Shown: positions 17,362 through 24,241 of the stretch, one piece after another
How the letters are laid out: every line of letters begins with the position of its first letter
Numbering within the stretch: position 1 is the stretch's first letter
Assembly (NCBI GenBank): GCA_900018345.1
Contig: FCNA01000006.1
Location: 1 to 64,000, forward strand
From: Clostridiales bacterium CHKCI006
Lineage (GTDB): Bacteria; Bacillota_I; Bacilli_A; Erysipelotrichales; Coprobacillaceae
Reading direction: 5' to 3'
DNA: 64,000 nt
Position numbers and translations under genes: made by a program
Notes under the pieces: model-generated
What the model was told of the DNA's origin: nothing
The model's database searches: none
Seen by the model: only the letters and a program-made list of their open reading frames with translations

Positions 17362-17529
17362 TTAAATAGGATCATCCCTATGAATGCTTTTTTTAGGTTT
17401 CATGCCCCAGGCGATCACGTTCATCAAAATAACGATCACAATGACAACAAACATGGCCAACCAAAACCCCATATTTAGACCCAATAAAGTCGCCGTTCTA
17501 AATAAAGACATCCCAAACATTTTCATCAT
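17362..17529 (-). CDS. 55-residue single-helix membrane protein downstream of mgtA
   Basis: Starts MMKMFGMSLFR at 17529, 4 nt after the SD GGGGAGTGGAA, and begins only 10 nt after the mgtA stop. A long hydrophobic helix (about 17-39, GFWLAMFVVIVIVILMNVIAWG) is followed by a basic tail KPKKSIHRDDPI, so the C-terminus is likely cytoplasmic. Small one-helix proteins such as MgtR and MgtS regulate MgtA/MgtC in enterobacteria; that parallel is by position and size only, with no sequence similarity claimed. It shares the mgtA transcript and the terminator at 17328. Confidence 0.7.
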   Translation of the reverse strand: MMKMFGMSLFRTATLLGLNMGFWLAMFVVIVIVILMNVIAWGMKPKKSIHRDDPI

Positions 17530-17539
17530 TTCCACTCCC

Positions 17540-20302
17540 CTACAATAATTCACCAAAATGACGGACATAAGCCTTCTTTAGACTGGTAACCAGTACCATA
17601 TATAAAAGAATACATGGAAGCAAATAGGCAAAGTAACTCATTGGCAATCTGACAAAACCAAGCAAAGCACCCAATGGTGAAAATGGGATCCATGTCAGGA
17701 CAATAATCCCTGCGCATGTCAATATGGTCAATGAAGCTGAAGCTCGGCTTTGGACAAATGGAATCTTGGGTGTACGGATCATGTGAATGACAAGTGTCTG
17801 ACTCCACATGGATTCCACAAACCAACCTGCCTGGAACATAGCTATATAGATTGCTTGCAGACTCACAAGCTCAGCTCCACTGTAATAGTGAGGCAAATCA
17901 TTATAGAGCACTCCACCCGATACAAAAAGCGGACAGAAGACAAAATACATAAAGATATAGGTCGTGAAATCAAAGATAGAACTGGTCGGACCGATCCAGA
18001 GCATAAAGCTGGCTACCGAAGATGCATCCCATTGACGAGGCACCTTGAGGTATTCTTCATCGACATGATCCCAGGGAATCGCCGTGCAGGAAAGGTCGTA
18101 AATCAGATTCAGGAAGATCAGTTGAAGGCTCATCATGGGCAAAAAAGGCAATAAGGCGGAAGCAGCCAAAACAGAAAACATATTTCCGAAATTGGATGAG
18201 GCTGTCATCTTGATGTATTTGATCATATTGGCATAGGTCTTTCGTCCCTCAACGATTCCCTCTTCTAAAACCATCAAATCCTTTTCTAATAGGACAATGT
18301 CAGCCGATTCTTTGGCGATATCAACCGCTGTATCCACAGAGATGCCAATATCTGCCTGACGCATCGCCATGGCATCATTAATTCCATCACCCATATAGCC
18401 CACCGTATGACCATTTTCCCGCAAGATGGAAACTACACGTGCCTTATCTGCAGGTGTCAATTTCGCAAAAACATCCGTCTTTTCAGCCGCTTTTGCCAAT
18501 TGCTCATCGCTCATTTTTTCCACCTCTGAACCAAGCAGCAGATGGCGGACCTCCATTCCGACTTGTTTACAGATGGTCCGCGTTACCTTCTCATTATCAC
18601 CAGTCAAGATTTTGGTTGTCACACCATATTCTTTAAGCGTTGCCACCGCTTCAGCAGTAGATTCTTTAGGTGGATCCAGGAAAGCCAGATACCCCATCAA
18701 CACCATCTCACATTCATCTTTGCCATCAAATGCCTCAGCAGATGTTAGATTATTTTTCTGTGCAATCACCAGTACTCTAAACCCCTTATCATTGAGCTGA
18801 TCCACTGTCTTTAAGATTTTCTGTCGCCGTGAGTCATCCAATGATTTGACCTGACCATTGACCTCGACATAACTGCAGATGGAAAGCATTTCTTCTACTG
18901 CACCTTTCGTCACCATTTGCGTCTTTCCATTTTGATCCTGTACAACGGTGGTCAGACGTCTGCGATTAAAATCAAAAGGAATTTCATCAATCTTTTCATA
19001 GAATTCAGAAAGATCTGTCAAGCTGGGATCAGCAGCCTCCGCCTCTTCTGTCTTATAGATGATGGCCTTGTCCATCAGATTCTTATATCCCGTTTGAAAA
19101 TAACTGTTCAAATAGGCATGTCTCAAGACCCGCATATCATCCTGTCCATCAATATTCCAATGGTATTCCAGCACAACCTGATCTTGCGTCAGCGTCCCTG
19201 TCTTATCAGTACATAAAATGTCCATTGCACCAAAATTCTGAATGGAATTTAAATTTTTGACAATTGTCTGTTTTTTACTCATAGAGACGGCCCCTTTAGC
19301 CAGGCAGGTCGTCACGATCATTGGCAGCATCTCTGGTGTCAGTCCCACTGCAATCGATATTCCAAAGAGGAAGGCTGACAGCCAATCGCCCTTAGTGATC
19401 CCATTAATGAAAAAAACAAAAGGAACCATGATCAACATGAAACGAATCAGGACCCAGGAAACTGCGTTGATGCCTTGAGTAAAGCTCGTCTCCACAGGTT
19501 CTTCGACAATGGCATCAGCCATTGAACCAAATAAGGTTTGCCTACCCACACTAAGCGTGATAGCAGTTCCGCTGCCAGAGATCACATTACTGCCCATAAA
19601 GGCTAGATTAGAATAATCTGTTAAGCCTTGTTGCTTCTGGACCACTTCTGCTATTTTCTCCACAGGCTCACTCTCCCCAGTCAAGCTTGCCTGACTGACA
19701 AAGAGATCTTTGGCTTCCAGAATACGCACATCTGCCGGAATCATATCCCCTGCAGAAAGATGAACAATATCGCCAACGACGAGTTCATCTAAAGGAATCT
19801 CAGCCTTCTTTACGTCTTTACGTGTCACCGTACAAGTCGTCGTAATCATTTCCAGTAATTTTTTAGCGGCGTTACCACTTCGGGATTCCTGTACAAACCG
19901 CAGGCTTCCTGAAATAACGACCATGGTCAGAATAATGACAACCGTGAGACAATCAAAATCCTCAGCTGTTTTTCCTAACAAAGAAAGATAAGGCAGGATC
20001 ATATCCGCTATGATTGATACAATTGCCAATAATAAGAGAATGGCTGTAAAGGGATTAATAAAGGCATCCATAAGCTTTCGAGACAATGTTATCTGTTTTC
20101 CACGAGTGACGCTATTATTACCATAGCTATCTCGGTTAGCTTCCACGGTCTGTTCATCCAACCCTTCCCAACTCGCCTGCAAACGCTGCATCACTTCATC
20201 TAATGCACAGGTGGCAAGATAGCTGATCTGACGTTTGTATTCATCTAAGATCATGTTTCTTTCAGTGATTTGACGCATTTCTTTTTTTACTTTTTTTATC
20301 AT
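17540..20302 (-). CDS. mgtA: Magnesium-translocating P-type ATPase (P3B), copy 1
   Basis: 920 residues, the usual MgtA length. The phosphorylation motif CTDKTGTLT lies near residue 366, the A-domain TGES near 213, GDGIND near 640. The P3B hallmark segment [42 protein letters not shown] precedes the last helices, and [11 protein letters not shown] is typical of Mg importers. It imports Mg2+ at the membrane using ATP. The start ATG 20302 follows AAGGAGG. A translated leader (20345-20413) lies immediately upstream and a small membrane protein downstream. A close paralogue sits 1.3 kb away on the same strand. Confidence 0.95.
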
Positions 20303-20344
20303 TGGTCTTACCTCCTTCTTATTATTTGAATCAGGCAGGACCCG

Positions 20345-20413
20345 TCAGTGAAGGACATGACTTCCATACTTCAGGTTCTGCCTCTGCCTTCGTTCATGAC
20401 TATCGGAATCCAT
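20345..20413 (-). CDS. 22-residue leader ORF upstream of mgtA
   Basis: ATG at 20413 preceded by the strong SD AAAGGAGG (8-nt spacing) and TGA at 20345, 42 nt before the mgtA start. The peptide begins MDSDSHERRQRQ and ends GSHVLH: acidic start, then a basic/Gln stretch. The segment covering codons 11-14 (20374-20382) can pair with 20334-20342 (GGCAGAACC with GGTCCTGCC, 8 of 9 pairs), enclosing the leader stop codon, so a ribosome on the leader would open this stem. This resembles translated leaders of mgtA in enterobacteria (MgtL) in layout, not in sequence. Regulation by Mg2+ or amino acid supply is inference. Confidence 0.6.
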   Translation of the reverse strand: MDSDSHERRQRQNLKYGSHVLH

Positions 20414-20469
20414 GCCCCTCACCTCCTTTCGTGAAAATCATTGACTTGACTTATTTCAGCAACCAGGGC

Positions 20470-20487
20470 TTTGCTCAAATGAGCAAA
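20470..20487 (-). promoter_or_regulatory. Stem-loop in the mgtA 5' region
   Basis: TTTGCTC-AAAT-GAGCAAA, a perfect 7-bp inverted repeat about 57 nt upstream of the leader ORF. A second small one, CATCA-TTTAT-TGATG, lies at about 20501-20515 and CCTGT-CC-ACAGG at about 20528-20539. No convincing -35/-10 pair was found, so the mgtA transcription start remains unknown. Confidence 0.45.
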
Positions 20488-20610
20488 ACTCAATGCCAGC
20501 ATCAATAAATGATGACTAAACCCGACACCTGTGGACAGGAAAAATCAGACTATTCAAGATAACGATCCAACCCAAATGACGGTCAACAGCTTTTTATTTG
20601 AAGGCTTTTT

Positions 20611-20760
20611 TCAGTTTGCAGGAAGCACATTTTCCTTCTTGAAAACAAACAGAATGCCTGTCAGACAAAAGACAGCTCCAAACAGACTAGTTCAACTATT
20701 CTTCACCTCACTGAACACCAGTGATTTCTTAAACAATGAATTTTGAACCATCGAATCTGT
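20611..20760 (-). pseudogene. Remnant of an EamA/DMT transporter C-terminus
   Basis: In one minus-strand frame without start codon, TSLFGAVFCLTGILFVFKKEN ends at TGA 20611-20613. This matches the last helix of DMT-family permeases in style. The same frame continues upstream through an internal TGA into NSLFKKSLVFSEVKNS. Only some 50 codons are recognisable. The remaining DNA up to 21021 (about 260 bp) shows no gene or RNA that I can name. Confidence 0.4.
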
Positions 20761-21021
20761 TCATAGAACATCCATCATCAGATAGCCCACGAGGCAAACC
20801 ATATACTGACCTGTAAGCTGTGATAGTCATATAAGCAACTATAAAAGCGATCCTATCGGTAACTCCTTCACCATATTTGGATCGAACCAACGCATGCAGG
20901 CATCTCCCATCCTTTTTACAATAAGCCAGCTATCATAAGACCTGTTTCGGTTCAGCAGCACTACTTAACCCCATTTCAATCAATCCTAGTTAATTCCTGT
21001 TTTTATCACCACCCAAAGTAT

Positions 21022-21066
21022 AAAAAAAATCGCCTGGAAAACACAGGTCTAAATTCTTGCGATTTC
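21022..21066 (-). terminator. Terminator of the second Mg-ATPase / regulator operon
   Basis: Minus strand AAATCGC ... GCGATTTTTTTT: a 7-bp outer stem with an inner CCTG/CAGG pairing and eight T residues, 20 to 60 nt after the stop of the winged-helix gene. Confidence 0.85.
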
Positions 21067-21087
21067 CTTGCGATTCAACGAGTTAAT

Positions 21088-21576
21088 TCATTCTAACTGA
21101 TCATTAAATGTATAGCCGATGCCCCAAATGGTCAGGATATATTGGGGCGCATCGGGATGAGGTTCGATCTTCTTACGCAATTTTCGAATAAAAGCCATGA
21201 TATTACTGTCATCCAATAAATAATGATCTTCCCAAACTGCCTGATAGATTTGTTCCTTGGTAAAGACCTCCCCACGATTGGAAGCTAAAAAATAGAGAAT
21301 GTCAAATTCTTTAGGGGTCAATGATATTTCACGTTTGCCAAAAAACACCCGGCGGCTCTTGGGCTGGATCGTCAGTTCGCTACAATGCAGTGCTGTTTCA
21401 GGCACCGTTGTATGTGCTCCGGCATCCATCTCTAAAAAAAGGGCCTGCAAATGACCATCGCTTAACGCCTGTAGGGAAGAAGATAATGACTGATACTCGC
21501 TAACCTTTTTCAGTTGTGTGAGCAGCCATTCCAGCGTGGAAGGATCCAATCCTACATAACCAATCTTCTTGTTCAT
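21088..21576 (-). CDS. Winged-helix (OmpR/PhoB-type) regulator without a normal receiver domain
   Basis: About 162 residues from ATG 21576 (GGGAGG upstream). Residues 75-160 are a complete OmpR-type DNA-binding domain: LTIQPKSRRVFFGKREISLTPKEFDILYFLASNRGEVFTKEQI, the recognition helix SNIMAFIRKLRKKIE and the final wing YILTIWGIGYTF. The N-terminal part is only about 65 residues. It begins like a receiver (KKIGYVGLD) but is too short and has no phosphoacceptor Asp or Lys pattern. It follows the second Mg-ATPase by 13 nt, so they form an operon. It may sense without phosphorylation; no kinase gene is nearby. Confidence 0.85.
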   Translation of the reverse strand: MNKKIGYVGLDPSTLEWLLTQLKKVSEYQSLSSSLQALSDGHLQALFLEMDAGAHTTVPETALHCSELTIQPKSRRVFFGKREISLTPKEFDILYFLASNRGEVFTKEQIYQAVWEDHYLLDDSNIMAFIRKLRKKIEPHPDAPQYILTIWGIGYTFNDQLE

Positions 21577-21589
21577 TCCTAATTCCTCC

Positions 21590-24241
21590 CTACATGAGAT
21601 GAGCATAGCGCTTCAAATAGCGCCGCTTGGCCAGGATCATCAGCAACAGATACGCTGTGACAACCAGCACCAGATAAACAAAGTAACCAAACGGCATGGC
21701 TGTCAATCCTAACCAGCGACCCAGTGGTGTCCAGGTCATGATGGTAAAAAGACCAATTCCCAATGTCGTCACCAGCATGACTACTGAAGATGGACGATTT
21801 TGAATCATCGGTATCTGTTCCGTACGTAACAGATGCAAAATAAGGATCTGGGTCCACATGGACTCTAAAAACCAGCCAGTTTGAAAGAGCGAGATAAACT
21901 GCAACTGTCCACCTGCATCCAGGCTCGTCAAAGACCCACCGCAGATCATTGGACAAAATACAAAATAGAGACAGGCAAATGTCAGCAAATCGAATAAGGA
22001 ACTAATGGGTCCAAATGAACACATCAATCTTCCCAAAGTACGACCGGACCATTCCAACGGATATGCTACGCTCGCCTCATCTACATGATCCCAAGGCAGG
22101 ACCAGACACACGCAGTCATATAATAAATTTAAAAGCAGCAATTGAATCGAAGTCATAGGAAAGAAAGGCAAAAAGATACCGGCAATCACAATGGAAAGAA
22201 TATTCCCAAAGTTTGAAGAAGCCGTGATACGAATATATTTTGACATATTATAGAATGCCCGGCGCCCTTCCAGAATCCCTTGTTCTAAGACCTGCAGATC
22301 CTTCTTCAACAGGATCACATCAGCACATTCCTTGACTGCCTCAACAGCCGTATCAACAGAGATTCCGACGTCAGACTCGACAATTGCGGGTAGATCGTTC
22401 ATGCCATCGCCTAGATAGCCAACTGTATGCCCGTTTTTTTGCAGCAGACGAACGATGTCGACCTTGTGTTTAGGGGAGAGCTCAACAAAGACTTGAACAC
22501 GTTCTAAACAAAGTCGCTTTTCATCATCACTGAGCGACTCAAAGTCATTGCCAGTCATAACTTCTTGCGTCTTTAGATTTAACCGTCGGCAAATAGAAAT
22601 GGCCACATCCTGCTGATCACCCGTCAACACCTTCACCTCCACATGCAGGCGTTTCAAGTGAGCGATTGCAGCGTCAGCACTCTTTTTAGGTGCATCAAAG
22701 AAAGCCAGATACCCCAATAAGATCAGTTCATGCTCATCTTCATCATGCAAGATACGATGCGTCGTATGTCGGTAAGCGACAGCGATGACTTTCATGCCAT
22801 CCTCCAACATTTCATCCACGATCAAATGCACACTTTTGGCGTCCTCTTTCGTCATCTCTCTTCGTTCACCACGATACGCCACCTGCGTGCAGCGTGGAAC
22901 GATCACATCTACATTCCCTTTCATAATGACTAGAGGCCCTTGTGTGCTCTCGACTAAGACACTCACACATTGGCGTTCATAGTCAAACGGGCGTTCATCT
23001 AATTTAGGGAATCGCGTAATCAATTCTTCATATACATTGGTTTGCCGCAAAGATGTGCTGATCTGTTTAATTGCCTCATCTAAATGATTCTTTATTCCTG
23101 AATGATAATAACTGTTGAGATAAGCCAGATGAAGGACCTGCTCACTCTCATTTCCTAAAATATCCATATAGTATTCCAAGGTCGTGTAATCACCTGTCAG
23201 TGTTCCGGTCTTATCGACACAAAGCACATCCATACTGCCAAACCCCTGCATGGCATTGATGTTCTTAACAACAGTCTGTTTTTGTCCCATCGTGGCACTT
23301 CCTTTTGCCAAACAAGCCGTGCTCACCATGGGCAACATTTCAGGGGTGAGGCCCACAGCTACCGAAAGTGCAAACAGAAATGCTGAAAACCAGTTTCCCT
23401 TGGTTAAACCCGAAGCGATAAAAACAATTGGAATCAAGACGATCATAAAACGGATCAAGACCCAGGCAATCGAATTGGCACCTCGATCGAAGCCGTTCTT
23501 GCGTGACAAATCGATATCCATAAAGCCGCCATAAACCGTATCCTGTCCTACCGCTAAAACGATTCCTTCCCCATATCCACCAATCAAAGCCGAACCCATC
23601 AAAAGCAGATTCGTATAATCGCGATAGGTTTTGATGGGTGATGCCTCTAAAGGCGATGTGTTTTTTTCCAAAATCACACTTTCTCCTGTGATCGCAGCTT
23701 GTGAAACAAACAGGTCACTTCCTTTTACTAAACGCATATCCGCTGGTACCCGGTCTCCGGCATACAAACGAACGCGATCGCCCACCACTAGCTCACTCGA
23801 AGGCAGCTCCTGCCAACATCCCTCACGCAGGACGCTGACTGTCGAATGCAGGAGATCTGCCAGATGATCTGCGACTTGTTTTGAACGCATTTCCTGCACC
23901 AGACGAATCATGCCGCTTACCAATACCATTCCTAAAAGAATTCCAATCGTTGTGAGATTACGTGTATAGCTTGAGGCAAATAGTACATCTGTCACTAGCC
24001 AGATTCCTGCCAGGCATATTAAGATGAGCGTAAAGGGATTAATAAAGGCACGTCTAAGGCGATAAAAAATAGAATCGGTTGCTTTACCGGCCACTGTGTG
24101 ACGTCCGTATTTTTCTCGACTTTTTTCGACCTGCTTCGTATCATACCCCTGGCTTGTCAAATGGAGATCTCGTTGTAGAACGGTTATCTCTTGATAAGCA
24201 TAATGTTCCAGACGTTGATGAAGCGCTTTGTTCTCTTTCAT
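21590..24241 (-). CDS. Magnesium-translocating P-type ATPase (P3B), copy 2
   Basis: 883 residues with the same plan as copy 1: TGES in the A domain, CVDKTGTLT near residue 341, [39 protein letters not shown], the segment [15 protein letters not shown], and LPWDHVDEASV. It differs from copy 1 at many positions (for example GDGMNDLPAI versus [10 protein letters not shown]), so the duplication is old. SD GGGAGG lies upstream of ATG 24241. It is followed by a winged-helix regulator gene. Probably a Mg2+ importer; a shifted ion preference between the two cannot be read from the sequence. Confidence 0.93.
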   Translation of the reverse strand: MKENKALHQRLEHYAYQEITVLQRDLHLTSQGYDTKQVEKSREKYGRHTVAGKATDSIFYRLRRAFINPFTLILICLAGIWLVTDVLFASSYTRNLTTIGILLGMVLVSGMIRLVQEMRSKQVADHLADLLHSTVSVLREGCWQELPSSELVVGDRVRLYAGDRVPADMRLVKGSDLFVSQAAITGESVILEKNTSPLEASPIKTYRDYTNLLLMGSALIGGYGEGIVLAVGQDTVYGGFMDIDLSRKNGFDRGANSIAWVLIRFMIVLIPIVFIASGLTKGNWFSAFLFALSVAVGLTPEMLPMVSTACLAKGSATMGQKQTVVKNINAMQGFGSMDVLCVDKTGTLTGDYTTLEYYMDILGNESEQVLHLAYLNSYYHSGIKNHLDEAIKQISTSLRQTNVYEELITRFPKLDERPFDYERQCVSVLVESTQGPLVIMKGNVDVIVPRCTQVAYRGERREMTKEDAKSVHLIVDEMLEDGMKVIAVAYRHTTHRILHDEDEHELILLGYLAFFDAPKKSADAAIAHLKRLHVEVKVLTGDQQDVAISICRRLNLKTQEVMTGNDFESLSDDEKRLCLERVQVFVELSPKHKVDIVRLLQKNGHTVGYLGDGMNDLPAIVESDVGISVDTAVEAVKECADVILLKKDLQVLEQGILEGRRAFYNMSKYIRITASSNFGNILSIVIAGIFLPFFPMTSIQLLLLNLLYDCVCLVLPWDHVDEASVAYPLEWSGRTLGRLMCSFGPISSLFDLLTFACLYFVFCPMICGGSLTSLDAGGQLQFISLFQTGWFLESMWTQILILHLLRTEQIPMIQNRPSSVVMLVTTLGIGLFTIMTWTPLGRWLGLTAMPFGYFVYLVLVVTAYLLLMILAKRRYLKRYAHLM

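Follow-up and report, generated by a model that had tools for sequence, protein, structure and literature searches.

A conserved acidic leader reading frame coupled to competing RNA helices upstream of mgtA in gut Bacillota: a candidate translation-based gauge of magnesium

In the 64,000-nucleotide stretch of DNA analyzed here (the window), the gene for a predicted Mg2+ importer is preceded by a short open reading frame, and the question raised by this locus is whether translation of that reading frame governs synthesis of the pump and, if so, which signal it reads. The encoded ATPase passes the NCBIfam cut-offs of both Mg2+ pump profiles (1161 bits against 975 for NF011702; 1107 bits against 611 for TIGR01524). 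An earlier note, made from the letters alone, had described a 22-codon reading frame with a strong Shine-Dalgarno (SD) sequence that ends 42 nt before the mgtA ATG (20302). This description was borne out, and the SD (AAGGAGGT) proved to be perfect, matching at 8 of 8 positions with a spacing of 7. The early acidic residues of the window leader are limited to D2, D4, and E7, and proline is absent, making it milder than the model sequences for intrinsic ribosome destabilization (IRD).

Table 1. Features of the mgtA leader region and its surroundings in the window
Feature	Position	Strand	Remarks
MgtA/MgtB-type Mg2+-translocating P-type ATPase, 920 aa	17540..20302	(-)	NF011702, TIGR01524, Pfam P-type ATPase domains
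Segment 3: mgtA SD region (GAAGGAGGTAAGACC)	20304..20318	(-)	Predicted to be sequestered by segment 2 in OFF state
Segment 2: anti-SD (CGGGTCCTGCCT)	20333..20344	(-)	Predicted to pair with segment 1 (ON) or 3 (OFF)
Leader ORF, 22 codons + stop, product MDSDSHERRQRQNLKYGSHVLH	20345..20413	(-)	ATG at 20413, TGA at 20347-20345
Segment 1b: leader nt 48-66 (TGGAAGTCATGTCCTTCAC)	20348..20366	(-)	Predicted to pair with segment 0
Segment 1: leader codons 11-14 (AGGCAGAACCTG)	20372..20383	(-)	Predicted to pair with segment 2, freeing mgtA SD
Conserved acidic leader codons	codon 2, 20410-20408; codon 4, 20404-20402	(-)	Conserved peptide feature across relatives
Segment 0: leader SD, start, codons 2-3 (GGAGGTGAGGGGCATGGATTCC)	20405..20426	(-)	Predicted to pair with 1b, closing leader RBS
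Leader Shine-Dalgarno AAGGAGGT	20421..20428	(-)	7 nt before leader ATG
Direct repeat TCGCAAG-N4-TCGCAAG, part of promoter/operator-like module	21056..21073	(-)	642 nt before leader; putative role
Putative regulator, OmpR-type DNA-binding domain	21088..21606	(-)	Pfam PF00486 only

Spread and genomic setting of the leader

We compared 82 loci, comprising 80 MgtA relatives from genome contigs, the same-family locus L004, and the window. A leader with a good SD was found in 44 of them, 58-142 nt upstream of mgtA (nearly all at 88-142 nt). The N-terminus is acidic in nearly all leaders and follows the pattern M-D/E-x-D/E, with MDSDGSPRR as the consensus and starts that include MDSDGSPRR itself, MDPDGKPRR, MDYDGHSEK, MESDGSP, and MDLDSSSS; lengths range from 14 to over 80 codons. 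The leaders are distributed over Bacillota, Negativicutes, and Coriobacteriia, in genomes named Blautia, Eisenbergiella, Butyricicoccus, Intestinibacter, Phascolarctobacterium, Collinsella, and others, and those of Collinsella start with MSGSDST, the RNA switch described below being kept nonetheless. About half of the MgtA orthologs, including the close same-order/same-family L002 and L003, have no leader. At L090, the leader MDSDCSP stops at codon 8 and the mgtA match begins only at residue 69; the two may be decaying together.

Because leaders were picked partly by their acidic N-terminus, the apparent acidic conservation is inflated and a bare count of acidic starts carries that bias; no such selection enters the RNA tests. 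In the same DNA, acidic codons at 2 and 4 together follow only 3.7% of SD-preceded ATGs. The leader motif has a single close match per genome, which lies at mgtA. The exact consensus pattern, which is too narrow to gauge spread, matched only the query genome among 399 genomes of the Clostridia-side phylum.

Upstream of the window leader lies a module (ATCGCAAGGAAATCGCAAGG...CCTTGCGATTTTTTTATACT, 21010-21075 (-)) that consists of a direct repeat, an inverted third copy, a T-run, and a -10-like box, and that is strongly conserved before mgtA or its leader in 58 of 81 MgtA loci. The module might serve the adjacent regulator as a combined terminator, operator, and promoter, and this regulator probably acts on it. 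Pfam gave no match to a receiver domain in the regulator (21088-21606), which may possess a degenerate receiver sensing something other than phosphorylation; genes similar to it adjoin MgtA in relatives. The distance between module and leader (20430-21020 (-)) is ~600 nt, as against about 70-130 nt in many relatives, and this stretch, which holds the inverted repeat TTTGCTCATTTGAGCAAA, could represent either an insertion or a long 5' UTR. Rfam hits to Spd-sr37 and snoR35 in the upstream region fell below gathering scores and were disregarded.

Several neighboring genes deserve mention. The regulator is flanked by two divergent Mg2+ ATPase genes that share 42% identity (17540-24241 (-)). Adjacent pairs of Mg2+ ATPase genes are also present in G022, G029, and G007, and in G007 a stop codon interrupts one of the two. 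A small membrane protein gene, a possible Mg2+ transport partner, lies directly upstream of the leader or mgtA in L031 (DUF3784), with similar sequences in L038, L041, L089, and L098. A hydrophobic 68-aa ORF at 17362-17568 (-), with no Pfam or NCBIfam match, overlaps the 3' end of mgtA.

Competing helices and the extent of peptide constraint

Per-locus minimum-energy folds show one shared competition despite differing sequences, in which segment 1 resembles segment 3 and leader codons ~9-14 form the segment that pairs with the anti-SD across the set. (The L004 counterparts of segments 1, 2, and 3 are GGCACAAAAT, ATTTTGTGCC, and GGTACAAAA.) The window fold contains the pairing that had been claimed between leader codons 11-14 and segment 2, which lies between the leader stop and the mgtA SD. 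The hairpin is not a single one as had been supposed, and instead appears to belong, as one arm, to a multi-way switch in which both ribosome binding sites are sequestered. Duplex energies in the window are -28.8 for 0:1b, -23.6 for 1:2, and -16.6 for 2:3.

Helices were tested by per-sequence folding, shuffles, and partner permutation. With redundancy removed at 85% leader identity, and with residual relatedness that the permutation tests do not fully remove, segments paired better with partners from their own locus than with those from others for 1:2 (-26.9 vs. -18.0 for swapped partners; z -13), 0:1b (-21.7 within vs. -16.8 between loci; z -9.7), and 2:3 (-13.4 vs. -11.9 swapped; z -4.6), and 0 of 20,000 permutations were as good in any of the three. 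RNAalifold, run on a MAFFT alignment, returned no pairs because stem lengths vary, which makes column-wise pair counting unusable likewise, and the first covariance model was sequence-only. Segment 1b occurs in all three reading frames among relatives and is therefore kept as RNA. A comparison of upstream regions for a conserved short ORF with covarying stems, which the earlier note had proposed, thus yielded both, with a leader in 44 of 82 loci and strong covariation between partners. These comparisons strongly support a conserved, translated-looking leader that is coupled to RNA folding before the Mg2+ ATPase gene. At L036 and L103, the 5' half of the leader is missing and segments 2 and 3 are still present before mgtA, so that the SD should stay closed there.

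How much of the leader is kept as peptide can be judged from where codons change. Among non-redundant leaders, differences in codons 2-4 fall at codon positions 1/2/3 in the numbers 177/128/876, and the absence of frame conservation in relatives, named beforehand as an outcome that would count against a leader, was thus not encountered. Codons 10-14 (1873/1812/1851) and 15-20 (2380/2355/2407) lack such periodicity, and the appearance of a selected peptide is thus restricted to the first seven to nine codons. As far as sequence comparison can tell, the coding signal is limited to roughly codons 2-9, and farther on there is conservation of RNA pairing only. Of the acidic start and subsequent R/Q-rich part described earlier, the former is conserved as peptide and the latter is kept only as RNA.

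Conservation of the start has a second potential source. A small hairpin, P1 (GGACUC..GAY..GGCAGUCC), spans codons 1-7 in many relatives. Its presence could be mistaken for peptide conservation or explain part of the conservation of the start. P1 is weak or absent in ten leaders, including that of the window, and 8 of these 10 keep both acidic residues, which argues for peptide-level constraint on the start; L105 is the reverse case, in which P1 is kept and D4 is lost. The start region is probably under both constraints. An untranslated structured RNA, such as a Mg2+ riboswitch or a thermosensor, in which the ORF is incidental, would account for the strong conserved helices, including P1 over the start, and for the change of peptide under a constant P1 in L105. 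We nevertheless regard it as very unlikely, given the conserved SD and start, the triplet periodicity in codons 2-4, and the retention of acidic codons where P1 is weak. Further, what is conserved in the helices is complementarity, their sequences varying widely, there are no invariant aptamer-like loops, and the leader matches no described leader RNA family in Rfam.

Ribosome position and access to the mgtA start

For a leader that is translated, the energy required to open the mgtA SD can be computed with a ribosome footprint placed on each leader codon, here for naked RNA at 37 C and with co-transcriptional kinetics ignored. In long constructs, which include 20 nt upstream of the leader and 30 nt of mgtA, the mean opening cost over 37 non-redundant loci is 5.2 kcal/mol with no ribosome, falls to 3.4 when one occupies codon 3, and rises to 7.8 when it occupies codon 10. 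Subtracting the codon 3 value from that for codon 10 gives +4.36 for real loci, -0.40 +/- 0.16 for dinucleotide shuffles, and +1.39 for mgtA loci that lack a leader and were assigned a pseudo-leader; the result is stable to three footprints and several construct lengths. In the window, opening costs 8.8 kcal/mol with no ribosome, 2.7 on codon 3, and 8.8 on codon 10, and the switch between codon 4 and codon 10 amounts to +7.1 kcal/mol, where 20 dinucleotide shuffles reach at most +2.9. With no ribosome, the cost varies among loci from 0.4 to 10.4 kcal/mol when the 20 upstream nt are included, and the SD is predicted to open again when the ribosome is near the leader stop. A first model, in which mgtA was ON with no ribosome, came from constructs beginning at the leader ATG, and was dropped after the additional 20 nt showed the leader RBS pairing inside the leader and closing mgtA. 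Because computed SD opening is cheapest with a ribosome on the first leader codons, shuffles have no switch, and covariation is strong, mgtA should be translated only as long as those codons carry a ribosome.

A plasmid copy from Enterococcus faecalis was read after the model had been formed. In its leader (MDDSSSMQKGLAEEDIKIYRQLLLSICF, MDDSSS...), helix 0:1b is very long, and the ON and OFF helices are predicted here as well. SD opening is lowest with the ribosome on codons 1-4 (1.1-2.2), and in the long construct codon 10 is no higher than the ribosome-free state (3.7), the OFF effect being clear only in the short construct.

In the sequence of events that we propose, an mRNA with no ribosome on its leader would form 0:1b and 2:3, and the mgtA SD would tend to be closed. 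A ribosome on codons 1-5 would cover segment 0, allowing 1:2 to form and the SD to open, and one on codons 6-16 would cover segment 1, so that 2:3 forms and the SD closes again. At low Mg2+, ribosomes would hesitate on or drop off the acidic start by IRD and re-initiate there repeatedly, 1:2 would persist, and the pump would be made; at high Mg2+, they would traverse the leader, 2:3 would form, and pump translation would be shut off. The position of the ribosome on the first acidic codons thus appears, in this model, to decide pump synthesis. Output would be access to the mgtA RBS, and a transcriptional layer, formed by the regulator and the TCGCAAG repeats, probably lies on top.

The same arrangement might merely tune mgtA translation, as a constitutive attenuator or a device for translational coupling that senses nothing. 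The leader stop is found at many positions, from 47 nt before mgtA to well inside it, which could be taken to suit such a device but is also hard to square with simple coupling of stop to start. In our estimation this reading is quite improbable, in view of the acidic, sensor-like start that is kept exactly upstream of the switching segment and of the tandem M-box in L004. Least probable of all is an output by transcription termination, whether Rho-dependent or intrinsic, as for enterobacterial mgtL. E. coli MgtL is likewise acidic at positions 2 and 4, but there is no terminator-like site between the leader and mgtA, the SD itself makes up segment 3, which covaries with segment 2, and the window's genome has no convincing Rho. 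No Rho was found over the cut-off in that genome (best 50 bits vs. a cut-off of 509), and the two weak hits, which lie in neighboring frames (510 and 472 aa), resemble subunits of ATP synthase.

Known counterparts, the probable signal, and its meaning

Leaders of enterobacterial Mg2+ pump genes offer a precedent for a ribosome-based sensor. Acidic N-termini destabilize ribosomes, an effect counteracted by high Mg2+ (PMC9718836), and the EPDP motif of MgtL is one such destabilizing sequence (PMC11282234). MgtQ, an 8-aa uORF in the Salmonella mgtCBRU operon that controls mgtB, is acidic at residues 2 and 5 (Choi et al. 2021, PMC8092293), and its Asp2 and Glu5 codons destabilize ribosomes, promoting release of the mgtB RBS (PMC8092293). 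In uORFs of this type, downstream translation is under the control of the acidic codons and of ribosomal protein L31. Salmonella mgtL acts by Rho-dependent termination, and efficient translation of this leader is repressive (PMC11282234, PMC11552253).

MgtL had been put forward as the analogue of the window leader. The likeness holds for the acidic residues of the start, since E. coli MgtL (MEPDP...) has the same two acidic positions, followed by a basic stretch, in a structure-coupled leader of a Mg2+ P-type ATPase; of the other MgtL-type start features, Pro7 is common in relatives and absent in the window. It fails for the output, for which RBS release as in mgtQ-mgtB fits better than Rho-dependent termination, and for E. 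coli mgtL the computation yields no SD switch of this kind, the cost staying at 6.6-9.1 kcal/mol throughout. Salmonella mgtQ-mgtB would therefore be the closer analogue, and the leader may be said to work like mgtQ, with no claim of membership. Both have a strong SD, a short ORF with acidic early codons, and an MgtB-class Mg2+ P-type ATPase downstream. In mgtQ, pairing of regions 1:2 and 3:4 closes the RBS and 2:3 opens it, and like alternative stem-loops are predicted here; the logic (OFF when untranslated, ON upon early abortion, OFF upon full translation) and the translational output would also be shared. The second acidic position is 4 here rather than 5, and the leaders are longer (14 to over 80 codons, 22 in the window, vs. 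8 aa). Unlike in mgtQ, the closing helix here involves the leader's own SD and start, the leader mostly does not lie between mgtC and mgtB, and the hosts are Bacillota, Negativicutes, and Coriobacteriia. The window leader follows a long stretch after the regulator gene, not mgtC, and an MgtC-like gene is upstream in L105. An mgtQ-like ORF without the mgtC-mgtB order has been reported in Brucella (PMC8092293), so that this order is not essential to the mechanism; none was found in the proteobacterial plasmid copies checked.

Two further systems from outside the enterobacteria invite comparison. In erm-type attenuators, as proposed here, the position of a ribosome on a leader ORF frees a downstream SD, the stalling being drug-induced and the sequences and genes unrelated. 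The M-box (RF00380) regulates Mg2+ transporters in Bacillota, but is a ligand-binding RNA. A covariance search found none in the window, where the earlier note had likewise seen none, or in the window's genome, and located an M-box somewhere in 6 of the 47 MgtA-bearing genomes searched. The suggestion that the leader acts strictly instead of an M-box does not stand, since L004 has an M-box (961-1119), the acidic leader (1310-1452), and mgtA in a row. Our search of the open-access literature found no description of such a leader in Bacillota; the acidic-leader switch is apparently undescribed there, and its principle is known from enterobacteria.

Which signal, then, would the ribosome report? 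A switch set by ribosome position could answer to the supply of Asp, Ser, Pro, Arg, or their tRNAs, or to another translation stress, as any stall on codons 1-5 would turn mgtA on in the model. Leaders of Salmonella mgtA and mgtC respond to proline supply (PMC3641672), and Pro7 and Arg8-Arg9 are common in relatives of the window leader. However, several leaders have lost Pro7 and the Arg codons, that of the window contains no Pro, and the only near-invariant positions are D/E at 2 and 4, where Asp and Glu replace each other, suggesting that charge matters, not one tRNA, and arguing against the sensing of a single tRNA. With a Mg2+ importer as the controlled gene and close motif matches once per genome, at mgtA, we consider a signal of this kind unlikely. 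The Mg2+ signal is favored because a Mg2+ importer lies downstream, the leader motif occurs there once per genome, and an M-box adjoins the leader of L004. By analogy with the enterobacterial leaders, the switch is probably a gauge of cellular magnesium. We think it fairly probable that the leader is a translational attenuator of the Mg2+ importer, with Mg2+ as its presumptive signal and ribosome destabilization as its presumptive sensor.

The broader proposition is tentative, and we hold it with some doubt: gut Bacillota, along with Negativicutes and Coriobacteriia, may possess widespread, independently evolved, translation-based Mg2+ sensors, in which an acidic start is read by ribosome stability and a multi-segment RNA switch opens the pump RBS only if ribosomes do not get past the first five codons. 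The bearers of such sensors would include hosts without Rho and without any M-box. Ribosome instability as a Mg2+ gauge has already been described in enterobacteria (mgtL, mgtQ). If the proposition is true, a Gram-positive gut counterpart with a different arrangement and a translational output would point to a sensing principle that is general or that arose more than once, and ribosome destabilization would be directly testable on Bacillota ribosomes with a natural reporter. It would also explain how the Mg2+ importer is controlled in MgtA-bearing Bacillota that have no M-box before mgtA.
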